Assembly (NCBI GenBank): GCA_022539475.1
Contig: VCMS01000082.1
Span: 62,001-126,000 of the forward strand
Source of the DNA: Gracilaria domingensis
Lineage: Eukaryota > Rhodophyta > Florideophyceae > Gracilariales > Gracilariaceae
DNA: 64,000 nt
Direction of reading: 5' to 3'
The translations under genes were made by a program, and so were the position numbers. The notes under the pieces are model-generated. The model did no database searches. It saw nothing but the letters and a program-made list of their open reading frames with translations, and was not told where the DNA came from. Shown piece after piece: positions 15,360 to 60,763 of this stretch. The first letter of the stretch is position 1. Each line of letters opens with the position of its first letter.

Positions 15360-16219
15360 ATGTCGGAAAATATCTTTTCGTCGCAAACGTTAACAGATGA
15401 GAGAGAAATTGAATCTGCATCAAACAGACGAACAAAAAAACAAAAATGGTGGACAAAAGAAGTGTTTGAATGGCGCACATACCTTGATGACGACGACGAT
15501 TATAACACTGGAGCAAAATATCTTACGTGCAAATCATGTTCTTGGTTTAGCACAGCAAAAGTTGTGAACGCATCGAAGCTCGGGGAACACTTGCTTCGGT
15601 GTAAATGTGTTTCAAAAGAAAATTTTCGTCGCTTACTCGAAGATCCTCGCCTAAGACAATCAATGGAGAAAAAATAGACACAGAAGGTTCGGATCTGTTT
15701 GGTATTCCGATAACTGCAAAAGTAGCAAAGACGCGCAAACTCACCGCCCCTGTTGTGAAGATTGAACGAAGACCTCCCATACCTCACCCTTGTTCTGCGC
15801 CGGGATCCACGCTCTTCGCGTCTTCACAATTCAACACTCACCATTCGGGAAGTGAGGAAAGTCTGAGCTCTCGAGATCGTCGATCACGATTCAATGATCT
15901 TGTCACACGCTTTTTTGTGTAGTACATGCTAACGTTTTCTCTTTTGAGTGGCAGAGCCGGTTGTGATGAGTTTTATCAAATCATTCGATTGGCGAACTAT
16001 AAACTCAGCAAACAGCTTCCCGATGCGCAAACAATGGGCTCAAAGAACATTAACATTTACTACGATACTATGCACAGTCTTGTGAAGGAATTAATTGCCG
16101 CTTCGCTGAAAGATTCTTTTGGCACGGTCGTTTTCGATGGATGGACAGATGCAAACAACGAAGCAGTCGTAAATGTACTGCTTTCTTTTACGGGAGTAGA
16201 AATTGTGCGAAAGATCTTT
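15360..16219 (+). pseudogene. hAT2 transposase, N-terminal part
   Basis: Starts at ATG 15360. A BED zinc finger is clear: Cys57-Cys60 (LTCKSCSWF), then His77-Cys81 (GEHLLRCKC). The frame changes around 15605-15677 into a Ser/Pro-rich linker (APVVKIERRPPIPHPC) and is then broken by an in-frame TAG at 15920-15922, inside what should be a folded segment. It continues as FYQIIRLANYKLSKQLPD and the RNase-H-fold start VVFDGWTDANNEAVVNVLLS, which carries the first catalytic Asp. The left LTR of element A begins right after VRKIF. Upstream (15092-15359) I see no motif. This half carries at least two lesions besides the insertion. Confidence 0.75.
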
Positions 16220-17203
16220 TGTGGTGCAAACCCAGGACGGTTAAAACACGCAAAGGGTGTCCGAAGTCCTGCTTCCTAGGGGATGGTAACTTGGTGGAAG
16301 AGCCTCTGTTGACACCGGGGACCTGGGTGTAAGACCAGTACTGTACTGAGAGAAACCTACAGAGGTGAATGTAGAAAGTCCAATACCAGGAGGATCACCA
16401 GCCAAGAACGGTGTAGAAGCAAAGAATACCCGAAAGGGGTGAGCCAGACACTCCGAGAGGAGGCGTAGCCCAAGAGAAAAAGGAAGAAGAGATACTTCCA
16501 AAGGGAAGACGCGGGCAGTGCACAAGCAGGCAACAGGCCCGACGTCGGGGAAAAAGAGCAAGAAACAACCCAATACTGGGGCGGAGATCTGTCCTGCAAT
16601 CAGTAATTAATAGAAATAGTAGACGTCAATACCACACGGTATATACAGATTCCTTAGGCGTCCCAAGGGGAGCATGCGTACTTATACCTCTTGAGGTGAC
16701 CCTCCGGGCGGAGTAGTACACCGCCAAAGGCAGTAGCGCCTAGAGCACACCCTCAAGATGAGTCTCAAGTGCCCTCTGATCCGAGTGACAGTTCTCGAAG
16801 GAGAGGCTTGGTTGCTTTACCATCAGGTGGTGTTCAGCCGCCCCTGCACCTCTAAGTACCCCAGGTGCAGGGCCGGTTGACCGATCACAATAGTGCACAC
16901 CCGTACGGGTGGTACACGTACGCAACCCCACTGTCATGGTGCAGAAAATAAAGACAAAGTAAAATATTCCCCAAAAATGCTCTACTTGTGCACTAGCCAT
17001 CCACTCCCACGTGTCCACGCCCGGCCAGGAGCCTTGGCCCACGCACGCCCCTCTACGGGTGCTAATTAAGATTAAATTAACCAACGGTTGAAGACTCCCA
17101 TAGGGGATGCACCTCATAATGTCAAGTGCCACGTGCACCGGCGCATCGCTCATGTATGAAGAGCTTCTTCGTCAAACACCCTCAGAATCGGGTTTGCTCC
17201 ACA
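16220..17203 (-). repeat. LTR of element A (3' LTR in element sense)
   Basis: 984 bp. The ends form a 14-bp inverted repeat (TGTGGTGCAAACCC ... GGGTTTGC-CCACA type), longer than the usual TG...CA. Nearly all differences from the other LTR fall in the first 200 bp shown here. Confidence 0.85.
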
Positions 17204-17205
17204 TA

Positions 17206-17218
17206 TCCCCCTCCTTAG
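17206..17218 (-). promoter_or_regulatory. polypurine tract of element A
   Basis: CTAAGGAGGGGGA on the minus strand, three bases from the LTR. This is the expected primer site for plus-strand synthesis. Exact 13-mer copies lie inside pol at 20781-20793 and 23945-23957. Confidence 0.7.
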
Positions 17219-17285
17219 TCCGGAGTCGCCGTCGTGACGCCGCGAGGCCGAGACGGAAAGGCCTTAAATAGGCGGGCATCCTGCG

Positions 17286-19139
17286 ATGGACATCACCGAA
17301 ATCCCGGTTCCACGCATACAGCGCACCCTCGAGGTGATATCAACTCACACCGCGACTACACCTCCTATGTCTCACACATCAGCCGTCGTTGTCTCTCCCT
17401 CTGCGTCTGGGATGGATCCGTTTCCAACCAACCCCATCGGGGGAGCTCCTTCTTCCTCCGATACCGGACAGCAAAACAATGCGCTCGCCCCCCCTGGGCA
17501 ACAGCAACACCCACAGTACGTCGGTGGTTTCCTTTCCGCCCCGCTCCCTCAGGGGAACGCTCCGATGCACGCGCACCCGATACAGTGTCCTTCTCGCACA
17601 TCCGTGGCGTGGAATTCGCAGCAAGCGATGCTTCTAACAACGACCCCCGATGGGTGTATCTCGAAGGAGTCTTTGCAAGTGCGCGATCCGAAAACGGATA
17701 GTTTGATCTACTCACGGGCTCCGTGGTTCCACCCCGATGCGGTGAAGAATGATGCGCTCATCAACTCCTACCTGGAGAACGGCAAGCTCCCGGGTGGGAT
17801 CCGAGTGGAACTCGTCTGATGCCCGAATTGGCTTGGGCATATCGCAATACCGCCGTATCTCCTATACCGATCTCGTGGTGAATCCCTCGACAGCGCCCGA
17901 GTGGGATTGGCGAAGTTGGCCTATCAAGACGCTGAGCGAACTCGCAACGAGCATTTGACACCCGCATCTTATGGGTTTGACCCGGCGTTCTACCGAACAT
18001 ACGGTGAGGTCTCATACGGAGACGCGTTGGCGGAGTTCCCCGAACAGTCTTTTAGAGGATTGGCGCGTCGGGAGCCGTATATGCTCTGTTGGGAGAGACC
18101 TATCCTCCGAGCGGAGTTCCGGTACATCAGCCGATACGACACCCAGCAGCGGTTCGACCTGCGGGTCAAGTTTGAGCGCAAAGCACGCACCCGCCATGGG
18201 TTTCTGGTTCCATACTCCAACGTGGAGATTGAGCGTATTCGCAACAACGCCAAGTCTGGCCAGTATGTTCCATTGCCTCCGTGGTGGAGTCTGATGGAGG
18301 TACCCCGGGGGTTCTATGCCGAGCTTCCACCCTGTATCCATGACATCGGGTCCAAGTTGATTGCGAACCCGCAGTCTGGGTACTGGTCATTGGTTCTCGC
18401 CGAATGGGCGGCACGCGTGGCTGCGCATTTCCTCTGGGAGGTCTATGATCATCACCGCTTGTGGTATTTACCTCCTAGGTTGATCATGGCCATGTGTGGC
18501 TTAGATTTGTGGATACCCCTTGGGTCACAGAACAACGCTGATGAGCTTTGATCCCTCTTGGGAACGGTTGAGTGTATCAACTGGAACCTAGTGCCGGTGG
18601 AGAATCAACCGGAGCGACAGGGTAACGTGCGCGAGTACGACCATTCGACTGGTAGGCAGCATCCCTCAGCGGGTAACTTCGTGTACTACAACCCACGGGA
18701 GGGTAACATGATCACCCGACACTATGCGGAGGTGCTTTCGCGAACACAGCGACCAATTCCGCCTGGTCACCCCACTGGGTTTGTATTCACGGATGATTAC
18801 GTGCCCGATGTGGCGTGGGATGATCCAGCTTTGGACGTTGAGGACGTGACTCCAGCGAGTGCGGCCCAACCAATGGTGGTAGTGCCTGGTGTAGGCGAGG
18901 CTGCTCCTGCGGGACCAAGTGGTGGACAGGCAGCCCCGACGGGGTGGCAGATTGCCATACCTTCACAGGGGGTGCAGCTACCTCCTCAGGTGCAGGCCCT
19001 TAAGGACGCCTTAGTGGGCTTAGGAGCGACTATTCCCCCTGGGATGACGGACCCGCACCAAATGGCGGCGTTGTACGCGAACAGCGCCCCTTCCCAGCAG
19101 GGAAATACGGGCGGTGCCGGACCCTCCACGGGTGGCTAG
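17286..19139 (+). CDS. antisense gene of element A, unknown function (fossil)
   Basis: A gene of about 600 codons running opposite to gag-pol, starting 83 bp inside the 3' LTR and ending 366 bp from the end of the chromodomain ORF. Start: ATG 17286 (MDITEIPVPR), with a TATA-like TTAAATA 22 bp before it. Parts: a Pro/Gln/Ser-rich N-terminus, a block around AWNSQQA, ESLQVRDPKT and APWFHPDAV, a block PASYGFDPAFYRTYGE with RAEFRYI, a Trp-rich block (PPWWSLMEVPRG, AEWAARVAAHFLWEVYDH), then GNFVYYNPREG and a Pro/Gly-rich tail ending NTGGAGPSTGG. Element C has a counterpart that matches from end to end. There is no zinc knuckle, protease, membrane span or signal peptide, so it is not an obvious env or gag. 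The copy has about two breaks. I do not recognise the family. Confidence 0.75.
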
Positions 19140-19504
19140 TGGTGCTCCAACCCATACTACAGGGTATATTTTAGTATAACTTGAGATAGAAAAGTAAAAA
19201 CCAATTAGTGGTACTTTCTGCTTCATCCCTCCCTTCCATGGAACCTTCATCACTTCCTGATCTTCCTCTTCATCTCCTATTCCAGGATTCCTAGCTTCGT
19301 CTTCATCTTCTTCTTCCTTCGTCACTCATAAGAGTATTTTCCTTCATCACTCATAAGAGTCCTTGTAACCGTAAGTCGGTAGTGTTTGTAAACCGTAAAC
19401 CGGTGATTATAACTTCTAATCCTCTCTAGTCGAGACTGTACCTGCGAGACCCTTGTTTGGGGTACGTCCCGAATCCTCCAACGGAGCAGTACGTTAGCTG
19501 CGCG

Positions 19505-20176
19505 TCAGCCCACTTGGGCGTTATCAAGCGTTTGAGGGAGAGCCGTGCGTGTTCTGCGGTGATAGGAAATAACTTTAGACCTGGGTAGGTGTTCGATGGG
19601 CTCCTTCGTGTCCTCTTCAGGAGCGTAACCATACCACCGGACCCGGTACAGTAGTATCCGATCGGGAGTATAAGTGTGGCTCACGATACGGTCCACCACA
19701 AACTCCTGTGAGTAAGTACCGGTCTCCTTGGTGTTCTGAAACTTCCCCTCATGGGAGTACAAGATAGATGTCCCAACGGTGGGTTTTGGCCAGCGAAAAG
19801 GCTTTAAACCTTCACCCTCAGCGGGTTGCAGTAGCACTACCCGTCGTGTCGGGTTAGCTCTAACTTCGCCGTTTGGCGGCCGAATTCTACCCAAGTGGGT
19901 TCCTTCCAACGTATGAGGCATCCGTAATACTATGGACCCTCCAGGGTGTTCCCAAATGGTCACACCGGGCAACGGTTGCTTCCTCTTTCCCCTTTCATTC
20001 CCGTTTCCATGGGAGAACGCGCGCGGCGGTGAACGTTGCACGCTGCACTCCCTGTGCAGGGGGGAGGCGGCACGCTCAAGATCGGGGTACGCCATTGGTT
20101 GGCGGCGGTGCTGCGCGCGTGGCGCGTGCCACGGGGCACCAGTAGTGGTGCGTTTTTTTTTCCCAACGGTCGCCAA
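19505..20176 (-). CDS. chromodomain ORF of element A (fossil)
   Basis: An open frame on the element's sense strand, 3' of pol, ending in a chromodomain: EFVVDRIVSHTY, LLYRVRWYGYAPEEDT, EPIEHLPRSKVISY. Chromodomains steer integration of chromoviruses towards modified histones and normally form the last part of integrase. Here the pol frame stops first (20417) and the chromodomain frame follows after about 240 bp. The frame has no ATG at its start, so its expression route is unclear (splicing, or a later internal ATG). Element C has the same arrangement and the same final AQVG-stop, so this is a family trait rather than damage to this copy. Confidence 0.75.
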   Translation of the reverse strand: MATVGKKKRTTTGAPWHAPRAQHRRQPMAYPDLERAASPLHRECSVQRSPPRAFSHGNGNERGKRKQPLPGVTIWEHPGGSIVLRMPHTLEGTHLGRIRPPNGEVRANPTRRVVLLQPAEGEGLKPFRWPKPTVGTSILYSHEGKFQNTKETGTYSQEFVVDRIVSHTYTPDRILLYRVRWYGYAPEEDTKEPIEHLPRSKVISYHRRTRTALPQTLDNAQVG

Positions 20177-20416: not shown

Positions 20417-23400
20417 TTACTGCGACACTTCGCCGTCATCCTCGGCTTTCCCGTAGCTACCCAAAGGGTCTGCAGAGACCTGCTTTTCAGGTGTGCGAGC
20501 TCGGAGCGAGCGTTCTGTACGCGCCTGCGAGCCGGGCTCCTCGAGCGGACTCCGTGACGGAGTTTCTCTTTTCTTCTCGGTTGTCTCCCGTGCTGGGAGT
20601 TCTCTAGCGTTGCTGACGTGCACCTGACCGTTTTCGGTATGCGTAGATTGCGTCCCTGCAGCGGGAGTGTCGTTCGCGGTCGGTGGCGACGTCTCACCAA
20701 CAGTGGTGGCTCCAAGTCTTGGAAAATGCGGCAACGCCGATGAAACCAAAGCGGTGTTATCAGCGGTACCAGCAGCGTCCTCCCCCTCCTTAGGCGTTGC
20801 CGCCTGGGGTGGTGATACCACGTCGGGTGGGGGGGTGACGGTTTGAACTCGCAGTGAGTCGGCGGACTGCGCCTGAGAGAGGCAGTCTGACCCAGTGGGT
20901 ACAGTGTTCGATATGTCCGGTAGTTCGGATAAACCGCGTTCCGGGTGAGGAAGTACCGCCGGACGCGATGCTTCCGAAGGTTGATCACCTGCAGAGGTTG
21001 CCGCAACAGGCGGAAAGGCCTGTATAGGCATGGGGGCTTTTCTGACGCGATCGCGTGATACCCGTTCGTGGGCACCGTCGATGTCCAAGACAACGGTGTC
21101 TGGCGTGAGAGATACCACCCGGTAGGGTTCGCTTGCGATGGGCGACAGTTTGTGACGACGCTCCTTCTCAGGATTGTAGTACTCCTTTCGGAGGAACACA
21201 AAGTCGTTCACCTGCAATTGGGGTAAGGGTTTGCGCACCCCTTGGTCGAAGTTACGCTTGAATGTAGCCTGGGCTTTATCCATCGCCTTCTGGGCTTTCG
21301 GCACCATCTTGGTGAGCCAATTCTTCCACGCGTTGCGGTACTGCGCCGGGGACGGATAACTCGCAAGAGTAGGTTGGGCTTCAATAGCAACCGGTGGCGG
21401 TTTCCGTGAGAGCACCAATTCAAAGGGTGAGAGCGAGGTTACCCGATGTACCTGGGTGTTGTACGCATATGTGACTGCGTCAGTATAAAGATCCCATTCC
21501 TTGGGGTGATCTGCCACATAGGAACGGAGTGCATTAAGCATCGTACGGTTAAACCGTTCTACCTGCCCATTACACTGGGGATGATAGGCGGTTGTGAACA
21601 AGTTCCTGACATCTAGGATTCTGCATACATCTTGGAAGAACTTCGATGTGAATTGAGATCCGTTGTCGGAGAGTACGTTGACAGGCGGGCCATAAACGAA
21701 CACCCAGTGGGTTACGAATGCTTGCGCAATAACCGCAGCGGAGATTCGCGTAAGGGGTACAGTCCTGACCAATTTGGAGAAGCGATCCGTGATCACCAAG
21801 AGGTACCGGTTCCCTCTGGGAGTGCGAATTAACTCGCCCAAGATGTCGATAGCGACAACTTCCAACGGGCTTCTCGCAGGGAAAAAGGTCAACTCCTTTG
21901 AGTACTTCCAAAGTCGGACATCATTCTTGGCACATTCCACGCATGAGCGTCTAATTGCATAGCAGTCAAACGCCATAACGGGCCAATAAAAGTTTCTTCT
22001 CAGTCTGAGATACAGTTTGCGACCCCCAGGGTGCGCGCCGACCTTAACGGAATGTGAAAGGTGTAGTACTCGACGTTGTAGCGAGTGTGGCACCACGATC
22101 TGTGGGTTGCGTTCTACCATTCGTACCAGGTAGCCTTGGTCGTTCACCACAAAGGGTATGCGGTGTCCACCATTCAGGCAGGAACGCACTTGCGTGCAGA
22201 ACTGATCTAAGTGTTGTTCCCTTACTAACTCCTCAGGAGTAATAGGTTCAAAGGAACCCGCGATGGGTTCACTTCCTTTGGCGGCGAGGATATCGTCGCA
22301 AATATCATCCAATAGGATTCCTGACTTCTCATCTGCGGGTTCTGCTAAGAAGCAGGGTATGTCCAAATCATCGGAGGGTTCTGCTTCGGCAGCAGTTCCC
22401 AGACGGGACAGTGCATTCGCTTGGGTGTTGAGCTTTCCCTTCTTGTAGCGTACGTCGAAATCAAATTCCGACAATCGGAGTCTCCACCTCATGAGGCGCC
22501 CTGAGGGCTCCGAAATTTCCATGAGCCACCGTAGGCAGGAGTGGTCCTTATGTACCACAAAATGGGTGCCCATTAGGTAGGGGCGTAGGGTAGCCAATGC
22601 CCATACTACGGCAAGGCACTCTTTTTCAGAGACAGAATAGTTACGCTCGTGTACATTGAGCGAGCGAGACCAGTACCCAATTGGGTGACGGACACCTTCA
22701 GTATCCGTCTGAAACAAGGCACACCCCACTTGATTTGCACTGGCATCAGTGTCTAGTTCGTACGGTAACCCAGCCGTGGGGAGAGCCAAGATAGGCGGGG
22801 ATGTGACGGGGCAATCAGCTGCGTAAACGCTGACGCTTCCTTGTCACCGAAGGGTTCCAGTTCCACGGGTTGTCCTTTCGTTAGGAGTTTGTTGCGTGGC
22901 GTGGCGATCTCCGCAAAGTTCGGAACAAATCTCCTGTACACATTGCACAATCCTAAGAAGGAGCGTAACTCCGTTTGAGTTGTAGGGTGTTCGGCTCCCT
23001 TCAAGGACTTGACGCGCACCTCGTTGATCGAGAGTTGACCTGTGTGGATTATGTGGCCCAAGTACTTCACCGAATCGGTGAAAAACTCGCACTTCTTGAG
23101 TTTCAACGTGATTCCGGCGTCACGCAATACCCGCATGACATCCCGAACATGGGAGAGATGTTCTTCCATATTATTGGAGAAGATTATGATATCTTCCAAA
23201 TATACCAAACAGGTGCGCCACTTGAAAGGCGACAACAGAATGTCTATTGCCCGTTGAGATGTGGCGGCGGCATTAGTTAGCCCAAAGGGCATTCGCTTGA
23301 AGCGGTATAGCCCCTGATGGCATACGAAGGCGGTCTTATCACGATCTTCCTCCCTAATGGAAACTTGCCAGTACCCCCAGTTGGCATCGAGGGCAGTAAA

Positions 23401-24918
23401 GACCTTTGCACTCCCAATTGAATCAATGTATTCATCCATTCGTGGGATTGGATAAACGTCCTTCACGGTGACGGTGTTCAATCGACGGTAGTCGATACAG
23501 AACCTCCATGACCCGTCGGTTTTAGGCACAAGCACTACCGGTGACGCCCATGACGACTGTGCGGGCTCAATGACTCCTGCGCGTAGCATTTTCTCGACTT
23601 GAGATTTTTCCTCTTCACGAGCCTTCGGCCCAGCCCTATAAGGGTGTTGTGCAATCAACCGAGTGTTCGGTAGTAGATCAATTCGATGTTCCGTGATCGC
23701 GATGGTCCCCAAGGAGCCATCCCACATGGGAGTGAATTCACGCAACATGTCGCGCAATTTTCCTCGATGAGATTCTGGGACATGAGACAAGTCCAAGCTT
23801 TCCAACTTTTTAACAGGATCCGTCAATTCAGAGCCAGGTGGTGTGGCCTTCACCTCTGACCGGATCGGATTAGTAACACCCGATAACTTGTCAGGGTTCG
23901 TGGAGTCACCTCTCTTCGAAAAATGAGAAACATCAGCGGCGTCCTCCCCCTCCTTAGGGTTGGTCGTGCCAAGCACCTCCGAGACCGGTATTCTCGTTGG
24001 TACAATGGCGGTGGACGGACCCGATAATTTGGTTCTTCACCAGCCATTGGTCAGAATGGTCAAAGTTGGCGACTAGCACCTTAAAGGGTTCATCTGGATT
24101 GATAGTAATGATTCCGTTAGCAACCGCAAGTTGTTTCTCGGCAAAGAGAGTAGACAGGGGTTGCACGATGTGCAACCCTACCTGTTTGGAAGAGACCGGC
24201 ACCCATACTTGGGATTCCGATGGTATCCGAACGGATTGAGCGATTCTGAGTTTCGTTGAGACCGGCTTCGGTGTCGGCGGCTCTTGAGCGACAGGCAAGG
24301 GGACACGCTTACGCGAAGCAATCTGCAACGTCTTCCGCACTATCGGAACCGACGAGCCATCAACCATTTCTACGGTTCGGGCCCTGGGGCGTATAGCTTC
24401 CACGAAGCGATCACAAAAATCACAACCCAGAATAACAGGTGTTGCAAGTGCCTTGCAGACAACGAAATCCAACTGCACCAAGTACGTTCCAAGTCTCACC
24501 ACGAGAGGTAGATAGCCCGTTGTGCGTATCGGGCGGTTATTCGAGTCAGCGATATCCAAATTTGGACTGTAGCGAATGTGTTCCCGAAGTGCGGGCGGTA
24601 TCAACGCGGTGTGAATCAGATTGTGCGCAGCCCCTGTATCCAAGACGGATAATTGACGTACCATGTACTGGTTTGATAAGCCTAAGTCGGCTTATACTTT
24701 GTAATTCCGCTTAGCCATTATCATGACCCGGTCCGGTTTTCGCAAATTGCGGGAGCGAATCCACGGTCGATGCAACACTCCAAGGAGTTTCGAGTCAGCA
24801 TCTGTAGCAGCAACTCTCCTGAATAGGATTGGAATTGCCGGGGAGCGAAGCTGTGACGCCTCAGACGTTCTCTGCTTCGACTCAGAAGACGCCCCTCCCG
24901 TAGAGGAGACTCCCAAAT
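20417..24918 (-). CDS. pol of element A: protease, RT, RNase H, integrase (fossil)
   Basis: In order on the minus strand: an aspartic protease (VLDTGAAHNLI, then VILGCDFCDRFV); a linker containing PKEGEDAA; reverse transcriptase of Ty3/gypsy type (GVIEPAQSSWASPVVLVPK, WRFCIDYRRLN, YRFKRMPFGLTNA); RNase H (ERNYSVSEKECLAVVWAL); the integrase zinc finger (RRSCVECAKN) and DDE core (AIDILGELIRT, VLSDNGSQF, CNGQVERFNRTMLNAL); and a Pro/Ser/Thr-rich tail. It would copy element RNA into DNA and insert it in the nucleus. The protease begins in the -1 frame relative to gag. The copy is broken in a few places. Confidence 0.85.
20781..20793 (-). promoter_or_regulatory. internal polypurine-tract copy, integrase tail (A)
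   Basis: An exact 13-mer match to the 3' polypurine tract (CTAAGGAGGGGGA), within codons for PKEGED. Confidence 0.55.
23945..23957 (-). promoter_or_regulatory. internal polypurine-tract copy, protease-RT linker (A)
   Basis: An exact 13-mer match to the 3' polypurine tract, again within PKEGED codons. Confidence 0.55.
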
Positions 24919-27029
24919 CTAGTTTTCCGGGGCAGGCTCGACCGCCGGTTGCGGTTCATTCCCACCTCGGGGCTCCAAAGGAACCCCCTTCGCCAGTGTC
25001 GGGTCCTTTAACCCATGATTGGGCTTTGCGCCTGCTGCGGGTTGAGGCTGCTGTTGCCGTCCATACTTGGCCTTGGCATCCTCATATGAGGCAGATAGCA
25101 CACGTTCCCGTTCTTCCGGGGTCAAAGACTCGTACTGTACGATTACTTTCGGCATCTCCCTCAAGGGAAACGAGCACTGAGGTGAAATGTGTCCGTGTTG
25201 ATAACACACGTGACATATCAGCGACACCGATCTGTCCAGCGAGCGCGACGCCGCCGGTCGTTGAGGTCGAGTATCCCGCCAGCCTGGGCGTGCAAACCGA
25301 GTGTGGTGGGTGGCATAGGCCAGTAATGGCGCAGGAACCTTAGAGTTCCCCATGTACCCCACAGGGTCCGTATCCATTGTTTCTCCTGTAGTGGTTGAGG
25401 GTAACCCCGAAGTTCCTACGGAAATAGGATTTGCCGCAAACTGGACCTGACCATAATCCACAGGTGGACGGTTATCCTGTAACAGGGAGAGAGATGAGTC
25501 GGATCCTTCAGCCAGGAGGGCCTTCGTGGGCCCGTGTGTTGGCTTCCGTCTCGCTCGGAAAGTATCTTCCTCCGTCTGGGCGTAGTGAACCAGTTCCAAG
25601 TAGAAGATCTTCCTGTTCTGCTCCCGATAACGGGATACTAGTGCCCGGATGGCGGGGTCCAATCCTTCCACAAACATTGTGCACCTCTTCGCTGAGGAAT
25701 AAACGTTACCGCAACGGTGAAACGCTTCGTTCAAGCGCGTTGAATAACTCGTTTCTGTTTCCTCCGGATTCTGCTTTGTCGCCCGTAGGGCCAGAATAGC
25801 GTCTGGGATCGCATTGCCACTGGCATACGACCTCAATAGGTAATGAACGGCTTCAGGCCAACACGTGACACCGCCTTCAGAGGCTCTTGGTGATCCCCGC
25901 ACGGAGTGAAATTGGTCTTCGGCCATCCCCTTTAGGAAATATGGGAGGGCCACATACGCCTGCGCTTCACACATACAGAGTATGTCCGCTTCCTGAACGA
26001 AGCGTGCAAGGAAATCCAACACCATAATTGGGTCCTCACCGCTGAACTCTTTCTTCTGTAGAGTAATCTGCATTTGGCGGATGTAATCTTTCACTCGCCC
26101 CATGCCAAGGGCGTTGCGTTCGTCTGAGGCGTTCTGTAACCGATAATAACGGTATGAAAGCAGTTTCCGGTATAACGGATTCGATGGTTGCAACTCCCTG
26201 AGTCCCTTGTGTCTCTTCCCCTTTGCACGGGAGCGGATAGCCCCCTAGGTGACGAAAGTCGCTTTAGAGCGCGTTGCTCGAGACCGACGTCGGTGACTAC
26301 CTTCACTATCCGACGAGGATGAAGAAGATGACGAGTTACCCGACGATTGGGTGGAGGAGTCAGAATCTGACGAATACGAGTATGCGTGAACCTCCCTTTT
26401 AGACTTCCGGGATTTGCGCTTCATTGAGCGGTGAGCAGAGCCTTCTGAGGCGATTGGGTCATCTTTGGCCGCAGCCTCATCCATACGGATAGTGGCCTCT
26501 AGATTTTCCAAACGACTCTGTAAGCGAGTGGCGCTCACCCGAGCTTCTTCATAAAAGCAGCATACTCCGCTGCGAATACAGCGGGTTCTCCAAGACACTC
26601 CAAAATAGATTTCACATCCTTACGCAGGAGCCGAATGTCTCCCGAGTAATCCCTAACAGGGGCATCGTCGAGACGACGCCGAAGTTCGGTTTGTTGCTTC
26701 AGAAGATCCACGAGGGAGATGTTGATGACACTCAATCGTGAGTCTATTAAGGTATACTCACGCGAGTCCAGCGCTTCGGGGCGGGCTGCCTGTGAGGGCG
26801 TTTCCACCACCGGTGTTGGCTCCACCGAAGGAGGTTCCATGACCGGTATCGGTACTCTAGAAAGCTCCTGCGGTACGGAAACGGCTGAGGGTGCATTCCG
26901 ACCATTCGGATCGCGATCGCTATCTCCCGTCTCGAGAACAGAGCTACGGGAGCGCGGGGCAGCAGGAGGTGCTGCTCCACTCCCTTGAACTGACCCATTG
27001 CGAGAGTTTCCACCTGACGGGGGAGGCAT
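24919..27029 (-). CDS. gag of element A (fossil)
   Basis: Structural (capsid) polyprotein. It probably starts at ATG 27029 (MPPPSGGNSRNGS), which lines up with the gag start of element C (MVPPAPSSRNG). A disordered Pro/Arg-rich N-terminus is followed by a coiled-coil-prone region, a Ser-rich linker (SSDSDSSTQSSGNSSSSSSS), then the retrotransposon-gag core (FLARFVQEADILCMCEAQAYVALPYF, broken here only for length; YLLRSYASGNAI) and one CCHC zinc knuckle (CHVCYQHGHISPQC) for RNA binding. It ends APEN-stop, where pol opens in the -1 frame. This copy is interrupted in its N-terminal half. Confidence 0.8.
24922..24928 (-). promoter_or_regulatory. putative gag-pol -1 frameshift site (A)
   Basis: G-GAA-AAC read directly before the gag stop codon; pol opens in the -1 frame across this point. 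The equivalent heptamer in B and C is G-AAA-AAC. Confidence 0.45.
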
Positions 27030-27212: not shown

Positions 27213-27214
27213 CT

Positions 27215-28198
27215 TGTAGTGCAAACCCAGGACGTGTGAAACACGCACAGGATGTCCGAAGTCCTGCTCCCTAGGGGATGGTAACTCGGTGGAAGAGCCT
27301 CTGTTGACACGGGGGACCTGGGTATAAGACCAGTAGTGTACTGAGGGAAACCTACAGAGGTGAATGTAGAAAGTCCAATACCAGGAGGATCACCAGCCAA
27401 GAACGGTGTAGAAGCGAAGAATACCCGAAAGGGGTGAGCCAGACACTCCGAGAGGAGGCGTAGCCCAAGAGAAAAAGGAAGAAGAGATACTTCCAAAGGG
27501 AAGACGCGGGCAGTGCACAAGCAGGCAACAGGCCCGACGTCGGGGAAAAAGAGCAAGAAACAACCCAATACTGGGGCGGAGATCTGTCCTGCAATCAGTA
27601 ATTAATAGAAATAGTAGACGTCAATACCACACGGTATATACAGATTCCTTAGGCGTCCCAAGGGGAGCATGCGTACTTATACCTCTTGAGGTGACCCTCC
27701 GGGCGGAGTAGTACACCGCCAAAGGCAGTAGCGCCTAGAGCACACCCTCAAGATGAGTCTCAAGTGCCCTCTGATCCGAGTGACAGTTCTCGAAGGAGAG
27801 GCTTGGTTGCTTTACCATCAGGTGGTGTTCAGCCGCCCCTGCACCTCTAAGTACCCCAGGTGCAGGGCCGGTTGACCGATCACAATAGTGCACACCCGTA
27901 CGGGTGGTACACGTACGCAACCCCACTGTCATGGTGCAGAAAATAAAGACAAAGTAAAATATTCCCCAAAAATGCTCTACTTGTGCACTAGCCATCCACT
28001 CCCACGTGTCCACGCCCGGCCAGGAGCCTTGGCCCACGCACGCCCCTCTACGGGTGCTAATTAAGATTAAATTAACCAACGGTTGAAGACTCCCATAGGG
28101 GATGCACCTCATAATGTCAAGTGCCACGTGCACCGGCGCATCGCTCATGTATGAAGAGCTTCTTCGTCAAACACCCTCAGAATCGGGTTTGCACCACA
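27215..28198 (-). repeat. LTR of element A (5' LTR in element sense)
   Basis: 984 bp, begins TGTAGTGCAAACCC and ends GGGTTTGCACCACA as written on the + strand. It should hold the promoter for gag-pol transcription on the minus strand. Confidence 0.85.
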
Positions 28199-45141: not shown

Positions 45142-45338
45142 CGGGCTGGATTCTTTCTTTCGTTCTCGTTCTTGTCGAGGAGTCTCACGATTAGTGATCA
45201 ATTGGTTTTTGTGAAGCTACTGTGGAACAGTGGACTCTCTAGAGTGTTCTATTTGTTGTTCGTTACTTACTCTTTGGAGTATCGAGACCTCTCGTTGTTA
45301 AGTTGATCTTACCGCAGTTCGGTACACCGTGGCCCGGT

Positions 45339-47436: not shown

Positions 47437-48771
47437 ACTTGGGAGTTCCCCCTGCGGAAGGGGCGTCTCCTGAGCCGAAGTCGGAGACGCCCGAGGCGCC
47501 GCCGCTTCGCTCCCAGGTCACTTTCCTTAAAAGGAAGATCCTCACGAGGAAGATGGCTCAATCTGACGTGGATTCAGAGCTTTTAACGGTTCTCCGTCGT
47601 CCGTGAGTACGGTCCCGAAATTTCCGAAACCCGGATAGAGTTCTTGTGATAGCTAAAAGGAATAATAAGGTTTACGCCGACCTCGGCTTATCACACCAGT
47701 TTATGGTTCGTCAACTGTCTGTGTTAGACACGGGCGCTGCGCCCAATCTCATTCACTCTTCGTTAGTGCCCCCGGCACTTCGGGAATTCGTTCGCTATGG
47801 TCCAGGCTTGGATATCGCTGACGCGAACAATAACCCGTTGCGCACGGTTGGTTACTTAACTCTCACAGTGAGACTTGGCACCTACGTGGTGAAACTTGAC
47901 TTTGTTGTCTGCGATTCACTCGCTGCACCGGTTATACTCGGTTGTGATTTTTGCGACCGCTTTGTCGAAGCGATACGCCCAAGGGCGAAAACCGTGGAAA
48001 TGAAAGAAGGTACAACCATTCCGATCGTGCGGAAGATGTTGAGGCGCGCAATCCGGAAGCGCGTTCCATTACCTATAGCTCAGGAGGTCCCAAACCTGGA
48101 TCCGAAATCAACAAAGCTTTGCATAGCGAAATCCATCTCAATCCCGCCGGAATCCCAGGTATGGGTGCAGTGCGTCGCCAAACAACATGGAATTCGACTA
48201 GTTCAACCGTCTACATCGTTGTACTATCAGCGACAGCTCGCTTTAGCTAATGGTGTTGTTTCTATCGAGCCCGATCAACCTTTCAAGGTACTGGTTGCCA
48301 ACTTTGGCAAAACCACTCAGTGGCTAGCCAAGCACCAGGTACTGGGTTCGGTCCTGGCGCATCCGAAGGCGCTCGTACAGACGAGAATCCCAACGTCCGA
48401 GGTTCTCGGAGTGCCCAAAGCTAAAGAGGGGGAGGTGCGTCCTGAAAACTCCGTTTTGTCGGATTCCTCCAGAAAGGGAAACTCCGCCGTAGCGGAAGCA
48501 GTTGCTACTGAAGAGGTGAATCTAGTTAGTTTGGGCCACGAACGACCGTTCATTCCGGTTAAATCATCGCTACCCCCTGGCCCAGAACAGAGGAATCCTG
48601 TTGAGGAATTAGAGAAGCTGAATCTGGACCATGTCCCTGAGTCTCATTGCGAGAAGTTGCGAGACATGCTCGGAAAATTTACTCCCATGTGGGACGGTTC
48701 CCTTGAAACAATTGGAATTACGGAGCACTGTATTGATCTGCTCCCAGATACTCGACCAATCGCGCAACACC
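47434..48771 (+). CDS. pol of element B, protease and start of RT (fossil)
   Basis: The protease domain has VLDTGAAPNLIHSSL and VILGCDFCDRFVEAIRP. A linker follows with KAKEGEV, encoded over an internal polypurine-tract copy (48421-48433). Then comes the RT lead-in MLGKFTPMWDGSL and IDLLPDTRPIAQH, at which point element C is inserted. The domain order matches A and C. Confidence 0.8.
48421..48433 (+). promoter_or_regulatory. internal polypurine-tract copy, protease-RT linker (B)
   Basis: CTAAAGAGGGGGA, 12 of 13 bases equal to the polypurine tract of A. Confidence 0.5.
48767..48771. repeat. target-site duplication of element C, left copy
   Basis: ACACC, repeated exactly at 60759-60763. Confidence 0.8.
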
Positions 48772-49715
48772 TGTAGTGCAAACCCGGGGACGGGAGAGAC
48801 ACTCAAGGCGTTTGAGTCCTTGCTCCCTAGGGCAGGTAGACTCAGGGAAAGAGCGCTCCGTACACGTAAAATGGCGGGTGTAAGACCGCCCGTGCCTCGG
48901 GATATACCTCGGAGGTTGACGGTGAACAGGCTAGGTAAAGATCCCGGAGACCACAGTGATGGGTCGCACCAGCGGGCAATGGAAACCCTAGGCAAAAAGG
49001 GAAAAAGAGGGAAAACCCAGAGAAAACCCCCGGTGGGGCGTGCGGAAAGCGGCAACAGACCCGGCGGTGGGTGACGGAGACGTGTATTCAGCCCACGCGG
49101 CAAAGATCTCTATACAGAGTTGGTAGTTCTACCGCTTGTGGTTAAACAGGTATCTGCACGATGTAAGGAGTCCGAAGACGGAATTAGCCCGAGGGCAATG
49201 GCCACAAATGATCAGAATTGTCTGAAAGATCCCGAAGGATGGAGCTAGAACGTACCGTATGCGGTGACTCTCCGGGAGGAGTGGTGCACTTCGCGCAGGC
49301 GAAACTAGTCCGGAGCCGAGCCCGGTTACCCTTTACTGAAGGTGGAGGTGGCCGCGAAGTCACCTCCTATACCGTAACCGGTAAATTAGTTAAAGTAAAT
49401 TAAATAATTTGGTGCACACTTGTGCAAAGCCACCCACGTGGTGTACGTGCACAGCCCGCGTCAGCCGCCAGTAAATAATTCGACTATCGAAACAATTCCT
49501 CTGTGAATAGACCCAAATCAGACCACGTGTACTCACGACCACTCAATACCACGTGCCACACCCTGGCCAGTCCAGCTGACATTCCGACATCCAACCACCT
49601 CAAAATATCCCAGTTTTGGGCCACGTTTCATACTTTCCTTCCCTAGGATTAAACCTCGGTGCACGAGTTATGAGTATCAACTTCACTGATACCGCGTTTC
49701 CGCGTTTGCTCTACA
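48772..49715 (-). repeat. LTR of element C (3' LTR in element sense)
   Basis: 944 bp, TGTAGTGCAAACCC at the left and TTTGCTCTACA at the right. Differences from the partner LTR cluster in the first 300 bp. Confidence 0.9.
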
Positions 49716-49730: not shown

Positions 49731-49795
49731 CCTCGAGGCATTGCCGAGAACTGCGGAGACTTCCAATTGAGAGAAGTATAAATACGCAAGCTGCA

Positions 49796-51605
49796 ATGAG
49801 CCTTACCGACATCCCGGTCCCTCGTCGCAACGAGCCTCACGGTTCTACTGCCAGTTCTCCCGCAGTCACAGTGCGTTCCGAGGACTCGGCGGTCCCAGAC
49901 TCTCCTCAGATCGTCCCTGCGATGGATCCTTACCAGGACAGCGACCAGCTTTCCCAGCCTGGGGCGTCGGGCAACCCGATTCCACCTGTTCCCGCGACTG
50001 GGTATCTCGGCGGCTTCGCCACAGCTCCTCTGTCACAGATTCAAAGTCACACTCCGACACCGAATCCGATCGACGTAGCTGCATGGAACTCGGCGCATGC
50101 CGTGCCATTGCTGGCTACTCCGGGTAGCTGGATTGCGTGCGAGTCACTCTTGACACAGGATCCGAAAACGAACGGAAGTTGGACGTACTCCACAGCTCCC
50201 TGGTTCCATCCGACGGCGGTACGCAACGTGGCGTTAATCGATGCTTATACCGAGAACGGTTTGCTGCCTGGCGGCCTTCCTCGCGACATGGTCCACTTCT
50301 GGGATTCGAGGAACCGCGTAGCGATGCCGACTCATCTTATATCGCGGCAGAGACGCGGTCGTCAGTAAGAGACGTTGGATCAAGCCAGAGCGGCAATGGC
50401 GCTACTCGCGTACTTCCGTAAGGAGCGGGCCTCTTTTGCAGAGCTGATTCCACCGTCATACGGTTTCGACTTATCTCGCTTCCGAACGTACGGGGAAATA
50501 CAGTATGGCGCGAACCTGGTGGAGTTCTCAGCCTCAGCTGCCTTCCCTCAGGAAATGCCATCCGACATCCTCCTGTTTCACAGGCCTATCATCCGAGCAG
50601 AATTTCGCCATCTGCGACGTCCTTCTGGGCATGGGTCATTCTTCGACAGGCTGCGGAATGAGCGCAAGTGAAGGTCCCGGTTCGGGTATCTGATTCCTTA
50701 TCAGAACATCGAAGTTGAGCGGTTGCGCTCGACGACGATTCCCGTCCCTTCCAGCGTGGTGGAGCATGTACGAAGTCCCTCGCGGTTGTTTCGCCAAACT
50801 GCCGCCTTTTATCTCTTACGTGGGGTCGCGCATGCTTGCGAATCCGAACTGAGGGTATTGGATTCTGTTCCTCGCTGAATGGGCGGCTCGCGTTGCCGCG
50901 TTCATGCTTTGGGAAGCCTATGATCAACACCGTGTTTGGTACATTCCGCCGAAGCTGCGGCTCGTCCTGAGGACGCTGGATCTCCACACCGCTCTGGGTT
51001 CAAAAAACAACGTTCTCGAGCTCGAGTACCTCCTCGATTTCATCGAGAAGATCAATTGGGGCCAAGTTCCGGCGGAAAACGTCCTACGCGGGAGTAGGTC
51101 ATCTCATGATCGTTCACCTGGGCGCAGGCATCCAGGAGCCGGGGATTTTGTCTATTACGACCCGTGGGAGGGTGTCGTGGTGTCACGCGACCAAGCGCAT
51201 GCTCTGCGACAAATTCCTAGGGTTGTCGCGGAGGGTCACCCGGTTGGGTTCATGTTTTGCTATGATTACTATCCTTCAGCCAACGAGGACGATCCAATGG
51301 TGGATGATATGGTAGAAAACGAGGTGCTGGTCGGTCAGCCGCTTGGGACGGTAACGAATCCAGAAGCTGGAGCAGGCAATTTGCCAGTGGCCCCCACGGG
51401 TTGGGGTGTAGGCCCTTCCCAGGTAAACATCGATCCGCGGGCCATCGCGATGCGTAATCAGCTCCTGAACTTCGGAGTACCGGTCCCACCGGACATGTAT
51501 GACCTCGTCCAGTTGATGACTCTGGGTGCGCAGACGTTTGCGAGTCCTTCTCAAGGTGGTCCGTCGAACACGGGAGGCGCGGGACCCTCGACGGGTTTAC
51601 CGTGA
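49796..51605 (+). CDS. antisense gene of element C, unknown function (fossil)
   Basis: The counterpart of the antisense gene in A (17286-19139). It starts MSLTDIPVPRRNE, 80 bp inside the LTR, with a clear TATAAATA 19 bp before the ATG (49777-49784). Blocks shared with A: YLGGFATAPLSQ; AAWNSAHAVPLLATPG; DPKTNGSW; STAPWFHPTAVRNVALID; ENGLLPGG; PPSYGFDLSRFRTYGE; RAEFRHL; LWEAYDQHRVWYIPPKLR; GDFVYYDPWEGVVVSRD; and the end NTGGAGPSTG. The shared sequence covers the full length while the DNA has diverged clearly, so the protein was under selection. This copy has about three breaks. No known domain is recognised, and the composition gives no membrane span. Confidence 0.75.
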
Positions 51606-52028
51606 ATCCAACAGTGGGACGACCTCGTTTGAGTGCGGACGACGCAACGTTGGATGAACAACAACCAAACTAGTGGTATAACTTCTGTCATAGAATAAAC
51701 CGAAAGTCGGTAACTTCTCGCTTCTTAGCCGGGTTCCGGTATCATTGTTCTTCCTTCTTCATCGATTCCGATTACTCCTCTTCCAGAGTTCCTCCTCCCT
51801 GAGTAACCGTGCGTCTTCGCATCCATTCACCTTATATCCGCGTTAATTCGCGTGGGACCGTAATACGGTAGTTCGCTAAGTCCGATAAATCGGCGTCCGT
51901 GACCCGGAGTACTTCTTTTTCTTCATCCCTTGGGGTTCCTTCCGACATGAATTCTTCTATCTTTAACCAGATACCAATTCATCCCGCGAGCAGGCCATTC
52001 GGTTGACAACGACAAGGAAGCCTTGGGG

Positions 52029-53003: not shown

Positions 53004-56000
53004 TCAATTATCCCCGTAAGACGGTTGATCCGGATCGGCGGATACTGTTTTCACAGTACGTTTCTCCTTCAAGACGCGATGGCGCGACGTCGAGACGTGC
53101 GACTTCCCAGATTGGGGTACAGTATCTGCGGGTCCCTGAGTTTCTCGGGAACGAGTGTTAACACTTTCTCGTGTCTCCACAGCAGTGGTTGCCTTTCCGT
53201 TGCGGACCTCGCCAGCGTTGGCAACTAGACTTCGCGAATCTCTAGTAGGAGTCACTGTGCTAGCAGTTGGCGCAGGAGTTCCAGGACGTGGAGAACCAGA
53301 CGGCACCGGGGTGTCAACAAAAGTGTTTGCAGTTGCTGCGTTTCCCTCCCCCTCCTTAGGTGACGGTACGGGCTCCATGAGGAGATGGGGGGGCGGGTTA
53401 ACCCGTGTATACACTCGTGTAGATTTATTTGGGTTATTCCAAGTTAAAGTAGATGAATCTCTAAGGTCAGAGTACTCTACGTTCGGTAGATCCGATAAAC
53501 CTCGATCCGGGTGCGGAAGAATTGCGGGGCGCGACGGAGCGTCAACTGCATGCAGCTCTTCCTGTAACGTAGGATCCCCTGATTGGGTACTTGTAGCCGA
53601 AGGTTTTGCGTCGTCCGGAGGTGGAGCTAGAACCACGCGGTCTCGCGAGATGCGTTCGTGCTGATCGTCTATGTCGAGAACGACGGTGTCGGGCGCGACG
53701 GAGATAACACGATACGGTCCATCAGCGTTGGGAGACAGCTTATGTCGACGTTCCTTCTCAGGATTATAATATTCCTTTCGGACGAAAACGAAGTCGTCAG
53801 CCTTGACCACAGGCAACTTACCGCGGAGACGGCGATCAAAATTCTTCTTGAAAGCAAGCTGAGCCTTCTCCATGGCTTTCCGGGCAACCGGTACCATGGT
53901 CTTTAACCAGTTTTTCCAGGTATCCCTGTACGTCCGAGGTGACGGAGTAGACGACAACGTCGGTTGAGCTTCAATTGCTACCAGAGGCGGTATTCTCGAA
54001 AGAACGAGCTCAAGCGGCGATGACGACGAGACCCGATGTACCTGGGTATTATACGCATATGTTATTGGGTCAGTGTACAGGTCCCAATCCTTTCGGTGAT
54101 CTGCTACGTAGGATCTTAATGCGTTAAGCATAGTACGATTAAAGCGTTCTACCTGCCTATTACGCTGGAGATGATAGGTTGTAGTAAACAAATTCTTGAT
54201 ATCCAAGATGCGACAAACGTCCTGAAAGAAATTCGCACCGAACTGCGAGCCATTGTCTGATGACAGATGAACGGGCGGTTCGTACACAAAGACCCAATGC
54301 GTTACAAACGCTTCAGCGACCGCGGCCGCAGTAATCCGTTTCAACGGAACAGTTCGTACGAGTTTCGAAAACCTGTCGGTAATAACCAGGAGATATCGGT
54401 TACCTCGGGCAGTTCGAATTAGTTCACCAAGAAGGTCGATAGCGACAAACTATAAAGGAGCGGAAGCTGGGAACAGCGTCAGTTTCTTTGAAACTCGTCG
54501 TAGTTTGACGTTATTCTTTGCGCATTCCGTGCACGAGCGCCGTAGTGCATAGCAGGCGAAAGCCATGGCGGGCCAATACAAGTCCCTACGGAGGGTTAAG
54601 TACAACTTCCTGCCACGAGGGTGAGCTCCTACCTTCACATAATGCGAGATGTGGAGGACTCTCCGTTGTAAGGAGTGAGGAACGACAATTCGAGGTCGTT
54701 TTTCGACAATCCTGACAAGGAATCCCTGATCATTGGTAACAAAGGGTAGTTTAAAACCCCCGTTGAGGCGGACCCTTATCTGCGTACAGAAAGGATCCTC
54801 GTGTTGTTCACGTATCAGCTCTTCAGCCGTAATGGGCTCGAATGAACCAGGCAGTGGAGCAGCCGGTTCTGCGGCGAGTATATCGTCGCAAATGTCTTCC
54901 GAAATCTCGGTCTCGTGTTCCAGGTCTTTCATCATGAAGCATGGTATTTCATCGTCGATGACTGACTCTGTTTCACCAGAAGTTCCCAGACGCGGGAGTG
55001 CGTCGGCCTGTAAGTTCAGGGTTCCCTTCTTGTACCTGACATCGAAGTCAAATTCCGATAGACGGAGGCACCACCTCATAAGACGACCCGAGGGCTCGGA
55101 GATCCCCATGAGCCACCGGAGGGCCAAATGGTCGGTATGCACCCAAAAATGGGTCCCCATGAGATAGGATCTTAGTGTGGTTAACGCCCAGACAACGGCG
55201 AGACACTCTTTCTCAGAGACTGAGTAGTTGCGTTCGTGCACGTTCAGAGAACGAGACCAGTATCCGATTGGGCGGCGCTCGCCTTCTTCCGAGACTTGAA
55301 ACAATGCAAAACCAACTTGGTACTTACTGGCATCAGTATCCACTTCATAAGGAAGCCCAGAAGTGGGTAGTGCCAAGATAGGCGGAGACGTAACAGCGTC
55401 GACTAGCGACGAAAAGGCAGATGCTTCCGCATCGCCAAAGGGTTCCAGTTTGACTGGTTGTCCTTTTCGAAGGAGCGTGTCGAGGGGAGCTGCGGTGTCA
55501 GCAAAGTTCGGCACGAAGCGACGGTAAACGTTACACTGTCCGAGAAATGAGCGGAGTTCCGTTTGAGTCGTCGGATGTTTCGCGTCCTTTAACGACTTCA
55601 CTCGTACCTCGTCGATCGAGAGCTGTCCGGGCCGGATAATATGACCAAGATATTTCACCGAGTGGGAACAGAACTCACATTTCTTGAGTTTCAGGGTAAC
55701 ACCTGCGTCCTGCAAAACCTGCATTACTTCCCTCACATGGGCGATATGATCTTCCAGGTTGCTGGAAAACACGACGATGTCGTCCAAGTATACCAAACAA
55801 GTTTTCCACTTGAATCTGGCTAACAGAATGTCAATTGCACGCTGAAACGTAGCGGAAGCATTCGTCAATCCGAAAGGCATGCGTTTAAAGCAGTATAAGC
55901 CTTGATGGCATACAAACGCGGTTTTGTCGCGGTCTTCCTTCCTGATTGGGAACCTGCCAGTAACCCCAATTGGCATCGAGGGCTGTAAACACTCTTGCAA

Positions 56001-57533
56001 TGCCAAGCGAGTCGATGTACTCATCCTTCCGGGGTATCGGATATACGTCTTTGACGGTAACGGCGTTGAGTCGCCTGTAATCGATACAAAATCGCCACGA
56101 TCCATCCGATTTCGGAACAAGTACAACGGGCGATGCCCATGGTGACTGAGCGGGCTCAATTACGTCAGCACGTAGCATCTTCTCGACTTGAGATTTCTCC
56201 TCTTCCCGAGCCTTCGGGCCGGCCCGATAAGGGTGTTGCGCATTAGGGCGAGTGTCTGGGAGCAGATCAATACGGTGTTCCGTAATTACAATCGTTCCAA
56301 GGGAACCATCCCACATGGGAGTAAAGTCCCGGAGCATATCCCTTAACTTCTCTCGATGAGACGCTGGGACGTGATCCAGATTCAGCTTCTCTAACTCCTC
56401 GACAGGATCTATCTGGTCTGTACCAGGCGGTAGCGCTTCCTTAACCGAGGTGATCGGTTGTTCGTGACCCGAATTAATCATGTGCACTTCGGCGGTTACG
56501 GCATCATCCGACGCGGCGGAAGTTTCCATTTCTCTCTCTCGCTCCTTAGGGTCAGGTACACCGAGAACCTCGGACATGGGTATTCTCGTTTGTACTAGCG
56601 CCTTCGGGTGTGGGAGGACTGAGCCCAGTACTTGATGTTTGACAAGCCACTGAGTGGATTTGCCAAAGTTAGCGACAAGTACCCTAAAGGGTTTATCGGG
56701 CTCGATAGAGACAACGCCATTCGCCAAAGCGAGTTGTCGCTGATCTTATAACGATGATGATGGTTGAACCAAATGAATTCCATGTTGCTTGGATGTGCAC
56801 TGCACCCAGACCTGGGATTCCGGTTGAATGGCAATTGATTTCGCGACGCGAAGCTTCGTAGATTTAGGATCCATGTTTGGAACGTCTTGAGCCACAGGTA
56901 ATGGTGCACGCTTCCGGATTGTGCGTTTGAGCGGCTTCCGAACTATTGGAATAGTACTTCCGTCTTCTAATTCCACGGTCTTCGCCCTGGGGCGGATAGC
57001 CTCAACAAAGCGGTCACAAAAATCACAACCGAGAATAACCGGTGCGGCGAGAGAGTCGCAAGCAACGAATTCAAGTTTCACCACGGAGGTGCCAAATCTC
57101 ACAGTGAGAGTTATAAAACCGGACGTACGCAACGGGCGATTATTCGCGTGGGCGAAATCCAATCCTGGACCGTAGCGGACAAATTCCCGAAGTGCCGGGG
57201 GCACTAACGAAGAGTGAATTAAGTTCGGCGCAGCGCCTGTGTCTAGAACAGACAGTTGACGAACTATAAACTGGTGTGATAGGCCGAGGTCGGCATAAAC
57301 CTTATCGTTCCTCTTGGCCATCACAAGGACTCTATCCGGAGTACGGAAATTGCGGGACCGCACCCACGGGCGACGTAGAACCATCAATGGTTCTGAGTCC
57401 ACGTCCGTTTGAGCCATCTTCCTCGTGAGGATTATCCTGTTAAGGAATTGGGCCGGGGAGCGAAGCGGCGGCGCCTCGGGCGTTTCCAACTTCGACTCAG
57501 GAGACGCTCCTCCCGTAGAGGAAACTCCCAAGA
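53004..57533 (-). CDS. pol of element C: protease, RT, RNase H, integrase (fossil)
   Basis: The order is protease (VLDTGAAPNLIHSSL, VILGCDFCDRFV), linker, RT (DVIEPAQSPWASPVVLVPK, WRFCIDYRRLNAV, FKRMPFGLTNASATF, CLVYLDDIVVFSSN), RNase H (ERNYSVSEKECLAVVWAL), integrase zinc finger (RRSCTECAKNN) and core (LSSDNGSQFGANFF, VERFNRTMLNALRSY), then a Pro/Ser/Thr-rich tail with PSPKEGEGN over an internal polypurine-tract copy. Roughly 1500 codons when gag is excluded. The copy is broken in several places. Confidence 0.85.
53347..53359 (-). promoter_or_regulatory. internal polypurine-tract copy, integrase tail (C)
   Basis: CTAAGGAGGGGGA on the minus strand, identical to the tract of A and better than C's own terminal tract. 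A weaker copy (11 of 13) lies in the protease-RT linker near 56537-56549. Confidence 0.55.
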
Positions 57534-59789: not shown

Positions 59790-59807
59790 TTCTAAGTCGG
59801 GAGACCA
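59790..59807 (-). promoter_or_regulatory. primer-binding site of element C
   Basis: TGGTCTCCCGACTTAGAA on the minus strand, two bases from the LTR. Confidence 0.7.
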
Positions 59808-59809
59808 CT

Positions 59810-60758
59810 TGTAGTGCAAACCGGGGGACGGGAGACACACTCAAGGCGTTCGAGTCCTTGCTCCCTAGGGGAGGTAGACCCAGAGAAAGAGCCCTCCGTG
59901 CACGGAAAATGGCGGGTGTAAGACCGCCCGTGCCTCGGGATATACCTCGGAGGTTGACGGGGAACAGGCTAGGAAAAGATCCGGAAACGGAGACCACAGT
60001 GATGGGTCGCACCAGCGGGCAGTGGAAACCCTAGGCAAAAAGGGAAAAGGAGGGAAAAACCAGAGGAGATCCCCGGCGGGGCGTGCGGAAAGCGGCAACA
60101 GACCCGGCGGTGGGTGACGGAGACGTGTATTCAGCCCACGCGGCAAAGATCTCTATACAGAGTTGGTAGTTCTACCACTTGTGGTTAAACAGGTATCTGC
60201 ACGATGTAAGGAGTCCGAAGACGGAATTAGCCCGAGGGCAATGGCCACAAATGATCAGAATTGTCTGAAAGATCCCGAAGGATGGAGCTAGAACGTACCG
60301 TATGCGGTGACTCTCCGGGAGGAGTGGTGCACTTCGCGCAGGCGAAACTAGTTCAGAGCCGAGCCCGGTTACCCTTTACTGAAGGTGGAGGTGGCCGCGA
60401 TGTCACCTCCTATACCGTAACCGGTAAATTAGTTAAAGTAAATTAAATAATCTGGTGCACACTTGTGCAAAGCCACCCACGTGGTGTACGTGCACAGCCC
60501 GCGTCAGCCGCCAGAAAAAAATTCGACTATCGAAACAATTCCTCTGTGAATAGACCCAAACCCGACCATATGTACCCACGACCACTCAATACCACGTGCC
60601 ACACCCTGGCCAGTCCAGCTGACATTCCGACATCCAACCACCTCAAAATATCCCAGTTTTGGGCCACGTTTCATACTTTCCTTCCCTAGGATTAAACCTC
60701 GGTGCACGAGTTATGAGTATCAACTTCACTGATACCGCGTTTCCGCGTTAGCTCTACA
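59810..60758 (-). repeat. LTR of element C (5' LTR in element sense)
   Basis: 949 bp, the partner of 48772-49715. It ends CTCTACA at 60758, followed by the ACACC target duplication. Confidence 0.9.
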
Positions 60759-60763
60759 ACACC
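60759..60763. repeat. target-site duplication of element C, right copy
   Basis: ACACC, equal to 48767-48771. Confidence 0.8.

Follow-up and report, generated by a model that had tools for sequence, protein, structure and literature searches.

Is a long reading frame that lies opposite gag-pol, beside the 3' LTR of a retroelement, a gene of that element in its own right, and what might its product do? Most reports of antisense genes in LTR elements concern flowering plants, and the function of these genes is not settled. The question is raised here by two elements, A and C, found in a 64,000-nucleotide stretch of the genome of Gracilaria domingensis (the window). A first-pass annotation, made from the letters of the sequence, had described in both a gene of about 600 codons between the chromodomain ORF and the 3' LTR, and had taken it for a genuine element gene under protein-level selection. 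Using domain searches, a genome-wide survey of copies, codon comparisons and structure prediction, we identify it as a many-copy antisense gene of chromoviruses in this alga and consider what its role might be.

Layout of the two elements

The features of element A are:

16219..17203, minus strand: 3' LTR, 985 bp, 98.6% identical to 27214-28198, with ends in the TG..CA manner
17204..17219, minus strand (read on the minus strand): polypurine tract adjoining the 3' LTR
17264..17270, plus strand: TATA-like motif, a sequence-based candidate for the core promoter of the antisense gene, 61 bp from the LTR edge
17286..19139, plus strand: antisense accessory gene, 617 codons, broken by TGA at 17817 and 18549
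19505..20176, minus strand: chromodomain ORF, the end of pol; PF00385 match (E 3.2e-8) within 19508-20176
20417..24664, minus strand: pol, with protease-like (weak), RT, RNase H and integrase domains
24919..26193, minus strand: gag, with a CCHC zinc knuckle visible in translation and no Pfam match
27214..28198, minus strand: 5' LTR, 98.6% identical to the 3' LTR

Those of element C are:

48768..49715, minus strand: 3' LTR, about 950 bp, 96.1% identical to 59806-60758
49777..49784, plus strand: TATA-like motif TATAAATA of the antisense gene, candidate
49796..51605, plus strand: antisense accessory gene, broken by stops at 50366, 50669 and 50850 and by a frame change
53004..59630, minus strand: gag-pol, broken
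59806..60758, minus strand: 5' LTR, 96.1% identical to the 3' LTR

The gene is antisense since the domains of gag-pol (RT, RNase H, integrase and the chromodomain ORF) are on the minus strand, and together with the mapped LTRs these domains set it between the chromodomain ORF and the 3' LTR, as the first-pass annotation had proposed. The coordinates that it gave for the two copies, 17286-19139 and 49796-51605, are confirmed by their starts and stops: in A an ATG at 17286 leads to a TAG at 19137-19139 in a single frame apart from the two in-frame TGA codons, and in C an ATG at 49796 opens a gene whose terminal stop ends at 51605. The start of the gene lies some 80 bp in from the edge of the 3' LTR in A and C alike; at its other end, in A, the gene converges on the chromodomain ORF (stop at 19505), with about 0.37 kb between the two stops. 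The order RT-RNase H-integrase and the chromodomain at the end of pol identify the family as a chromovirus (Ty3/gypsy), and the PF00385 match upholds the earlier wording "chromovirus-like". The first-pass annotation was silent on the breakage of both window copies by two TGA codons in A and by stops and a frame change in C.

Several further observations concern the surroundings of these genes. Element C is apparently nested in a related plus-strand chromovirus (45258-48771 and 60757-63991), with gag (45303-47102) and a protease region (47646-48776) on one side and RT (60817-61734) and integrase (62307-63983) on the other; this gag is related to that of A and matches Retrotrans_gag with an E of 1.9e-4, below the curated cut-off. 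Pyrimidine-rich CTTC runs lie 3' of the stop of the antisense gene in A (19200-19330), in C (51740-51810) and in other subfamilies too; they are purine-rich in the sense RNA and might be a second priming site or a 3' UTR signal. The polypurine tract (CTAAGGAGGGGGAGA on the sense strand; the 17214-17219 region in A) is nearly constant across subfamilies (L033-L038, L043) with proteins less than 50% identical. Elsewhere in the window, overlapping self-matches of 73-77% identity at 11293-11980 suggest a degenerate tandem array.

Copy number, place and lineages

We searched the genome containing the window (77.9 Mb in 680 contigs) with protein queries. A 216-residue piece of the gene product yielded 150 scored places, the best of 1070 candidates, and other queries recovered further lineages, namely a class near the Gracilariopsis chorda protein P0002 (at least 74 places), one near P0007 (at least 42) and one with a 721-residue frame (at least 29). 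Merging the lists, to which one full-length-query list contributed only the 11 places that were new, gives at least 306 distinct places and at least six lineages within this one genome. In two subfamilies, a hand count of the copies scored with the full-length query found 51 of 71 and 52 of 73 to be free of stops.

The place of the gene within the element was surveyed from the RT side, at the 150 scored places out of 1776 candidates. Among the matches listed, at least 82 of these 150 are followed, 3.0-5.5 kb downstream, by a gene copy on the opposite strand; no same-strand copy is listed at that distance. The other 68 are without a listed partner, a figure that includes contig ends (9 counted on shorter lists) and from which real absence is not separable. 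The pairing, for which 71 of the 90 rows of one gene list were used and 19 short C-terminal pieces left out, follows the RT subfamily strictly: all 51 partners of 483-base RT matches belong to class 1, and all 31 partners of 480-base matches to class 2. Among 72 fetched loci with gene copies, the chromodomain ORF of A is matched in 65 and the exact LTR-end/polypurine string is found in 45. One locus (G000:C144:59156-90955; L001-L003, L011, L012 and L018) holds three copies of the element spaced evenly, 11590 bases apart (RT places at 60656, 72246 and 83836), and looks like a tandem multimer with common LTRs.

Selection on the reading frame

The copies in A and C are homologous, as had been claimed, with 47.7% amino-acid identity over 566 codons compared piecewise in their proper frames. 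Their differences are far from even over the codon positions (236/190/359), which answers the A/C codon comparison that the first-pass annotation had put forward as a check on its selection claim. The corresponding pN is 0.368 and pS 0.756; synonymous sites are saturated, so dN/dS between A and C cannot be put in a number. The same count gives a pN of 0.213 and an identity of 68.3% for pol, and 0.287 and 57.1% for gag, from which it follows that the antisense gene is constrained at the protein level yet faster-evolving than gag and pol; in the clean set pN/pS is 0.49 for the antisense gene, 0.29 for pol and 0.39 for gag. Earlier A/C values of dN/dS (0.21 for the gene, 0.26 for pol and 0.33 for gag) are withdrawn, as they included off-frame and overlapping matches and suffered from synonymous saturation.

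Twelve open copies, compared in 66 pairs, gave a dN/dS of 0.142-0.302 in 41 of the 55 pairs between subfamilies, the other 14 being saturated, and of 0.19-0.52 in the 11 pairs within subfamilies; these values are biased down, since the 12 copies were chosen for being open. In five intact copies the frames of the reverse (sense) strand hold 8-28 stops each. A third-position excess in sense-strand frames (66/63/116 over 210 codons) was discounted, as it came from short matches mirroring the coding strand, in frames that are closed by stops.

The place, strand and frame of the gene, its selection at the protein level and its co-inheritance with the RT subfamily are thus direct observations. That this is a genuine element gene was well judged in the first pass: it is borne out by the opposite-strand pairing with RT and the lack of any same-strand pair, by the lineages and the more than 100 stop-free copies, by the third-position excess between A and C and the low dN/dS between intact subfamilies wherever it is finite, and also by relatives in other named red algae.

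The protein and its relatives

Protein searches recovered 12 and then three further relatives, none with another domain label. The three named ones are two hypothetical proteins of Gracilariopsis chorda and one from Agarophyton chilense. All are red algal, so the "plant" framing of the first-pass annotation is probably wrong. The tree unites P0002 with class 2 from this genome at a support of 1.000, with P0007 separate; on this placement the gene lineages either are older than the divergence of these algae or have passed from one alga to another. Annotators should beware that algal genome records list these relatives as hypothetical proteins.

Family members conserve their amino acids at 30-50% identity. 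An alignment of 18 rows shows a globular domain with invariant R, E, D and W residues, the invariant positions including EFR (283-285), ER (303-304) and EV (344-345). Modelled at full length, the protein is predicted confidently in its middle part and as disordered at both ends (mean pLDDT 69.4), and the core modelled alone (residues 121-500 of the L010 copy; 380 residues) is predicted to be mostly helical, with a pLDDT of 89.9 and a pTM of 0.90. No Pfam family is common to even two of 22 members at E<=1, PDB returned no sequence match, and Foldseek and VIA-align gave nothing beyond chance in PDB and BFVD. The modelled core is therefore without a match in Pfam, PDB and BFVD, which is not proof of a new fold.

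Candidate promoter and translation start

Of 47 sites, 38 show a TATA-like string at a distance of 60-63 bp from the 3' LTR edge and nine have none of the listed strings, which were picked after the sequences had been seen. The consensus TATAWAWR is matched at six or more of its eight positions within one 4-bp window in A, C and three other classes alike, with 8/8 in three of them, and none of 2000 first-order resamplings reproduced this alignment of all five classes; on the reverse strand TATAWAWR scores 7/8 matches in four of the five. The fixed distance from TATA to edge could be kept by common descent alone.

The first ATG is 54-83 bp from the LTR edge. A TATA box at 60-63 bp would put the RNA start near, at or beyond this ATG, in conflict with the peptide PVPR/PRKR just after it, which A and C, compared by eye, seem to keep while their codons change synonymously. 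All five classes have their next listed ATG in the same frame.

Proposed role and alternatives

We propose that a large chromodomain Ty3/gypsy family of a Gracilaria-group red alga carries, opposite gag-pol and between pol and the 3' LTR, a standing accessory gene. It would be expressed from its own mRNA, whose promoter would lie where the 3' LTR adjoins the interior of the element and whose transcription would run towards pol, with translation from the first or the second ATG. The product, of some 600-700 residues, is predicted to begin with a disordered N-terminus rich in Pro and Ser, followed by a conserved, helical core of about 380 residues and a disordered tail that includes a short conserved helix. 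It may serve the element as a nuclear accessory factor in transcription, escape from silencing or the handling of genomic RNA, a guess of the kind proposed for other antisense aORF proteins. The nucleus as the most likely site of action is likewise guessed, from analogies with Grande gene23, with CERV (see below) and with the TRP28 proteins, for which DNA binding has been proposed, and from short basic motifs; a role with nucleic acids is a guess by the same analogies, with no sequence or fold match behind it. As a whole, the reading of the gene as encoding a separately transcribed, nuclear-acting accessory protein of red algal chromodomain Ty3/gypsy elements has in our view about an even chance of being right.

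Alternatively, the protein, translated from a separate mRNA, might be env-like or movement-like and take part in particles, egress or cell-to-cell spread. Such a role would suit the pit connections that link red algal cells, and a gene of this size (about 600 residues) that lies after pol and before the 3' LTR occupies the usual site of env-like genes. However, the gene has neither the sense orientation nor the transmembrane helices of an env-like gene: the highest 19-residue Kyte-Doolittle means in four intact proteins (0.85-1.52) are too low for a usual membrane helix, the proteins have 3-5 cysteines each, BFVD gave no match, and the env-like aORFs described in passages of PMC7264820 are sense. 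We consider this explanation unlikely.

Instead, the element might have captured an ancient host gene that then became fixed in it and still performs a host-type function, perhaps an enzymatic one. The globular domain with its invariant R, E, D and W residues would fit, as would the lack of any link to other retroelement proteins. Against it, the 22 members share no Pfam family and have no PDB relative by sequence or fold, the 15 relatives carry no other domain label, and no free-standing host homologue was seen in a non-exhaustive search of element-free copies; we regard such an origin as quite improbable. The first-pass statement that the gene is "not a captured fragment" holds for recent capture only.

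That the antisense RNA itself acts, by pairing with the sense 3' end to tune expression or feed small RNAs, with the protein secondary, is harder still to sustain. Passages of PMC7264820 report antisense transcripts of other LTR elements, coding or not, and the gene lies wholly inside the sense 3' region. The codon-position pattern, the long frame kept open in more than 100 stop-free copies and the amino-acid conservation at 30-50% identity nevertheless require translation, and make this reading very doubtful. Lastly, the frame might be open merely by chance, the sense strand opposite being compositionally biased, or might be a nested fragment. The breakage of both window copies might have pointed to this, but it is refuted by the repeated intact frames, the fixed place and the third-position excess, with sense-strand frames closed by 8-28 stops.

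Comparison with known systems

Passages of PMC7264820 and PMC11963269 describe the plant aORF-3R genes (maize Grande gene23, rice RIRE2, Silene Retand) as antisense ORFs that sit between pol and the 3' LTR, are conserved, occur in the majority of copies and have no settled function. The present gene is alike in position and strand, lying between pol and the 3' LTR and antisense to gag-pol. The plant genes match the other genes of their elements in conservation; in the present family at least 82 of 150 RT places have the gene, and its conservation is below that of gag and pol. According to PMC7264820, in the parts that treat it, gene23 is driven by a promoter of its own lying upstream, and its product is nuclear; here the candidate counterpart of that promoter is a TATA-like motif at a fixed distance. 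The same two papers, in part, present Retand elements as non-chromoviruses of flowering plants that nearly all encode the TRP28 domain PF04195, for whose proteins DNA binding has been proposed. In contrast, the elements described here are chromodomain (PF00385) elements of a red alga, with a pol that is not of the non-chromovirus kind. PF04195 is absent from the Pfam families matched by the 22 members at E<=1, and it has no match in the genome at E<=1, in a search whose control genomes were prokaryotes and hence offered no positive control.

Beyond plants, Boty of Botrytis cinerea is described in part of PMC7264820 as carrying an antisense ORF between pol and the 3' LTR. Position and strand are the same, while no fungal protein appears by name among the relatives found. 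In Cer1 of C. elegans, the relevant parts of PMC10309623 describe CERV as a nuclear protein of 517 aa with no obvious homologues, needed for export of the genomic RNA. The two resemble each other in size, in being accessory and in lacking obvious homologues; yet the CERV mRNA is spliced and its exons 1-3 share the gag reading frame (PMC10309623, same parts), so CERV is not antisense.

The architecture of an antisense gene between pol and the 3' LTR is thus already known; the protein and the chromovirus setting are not. Among open-licence PMC papers on red algal LTR elements, whose titles and abstract starts were covered, we found no account of this gene, which may be described elsewhere. The red algal case, with hundreds of copies, many of them stop-free, and a core that is confidently modelled, offers a second, unrelated system in which to ask why a retroelement keeps a large protein gene on the wrong strand, be it for regulation, RNA export or silencing escape.

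In HTLV the antisense gene HBZ lies near the 3' LTR, is transcribed from the 3' LTR side and encodes a small bZIP protein. The likeness is in the antisense position near the 3' LTR (HBZ is also mentioned in a part of PMC11963269); the gene described here belongs to a retrotransposon and not a retrovirus, has a large, predicted helical core, and shows no bZIP among the Pfam matches of its 22 members. Whether red algal chromoviruses evolved their own antisense accessory gene independently of TRP28, one that is old and lineage-wide, with a fold not yet seen and a promoter at the 3' LTR edge, we judge to be evenly poised. If they did, retroelements of distantly related eukaryotes would have arrived at antisense accessory genes by convergence, with HTLV as a parallel.
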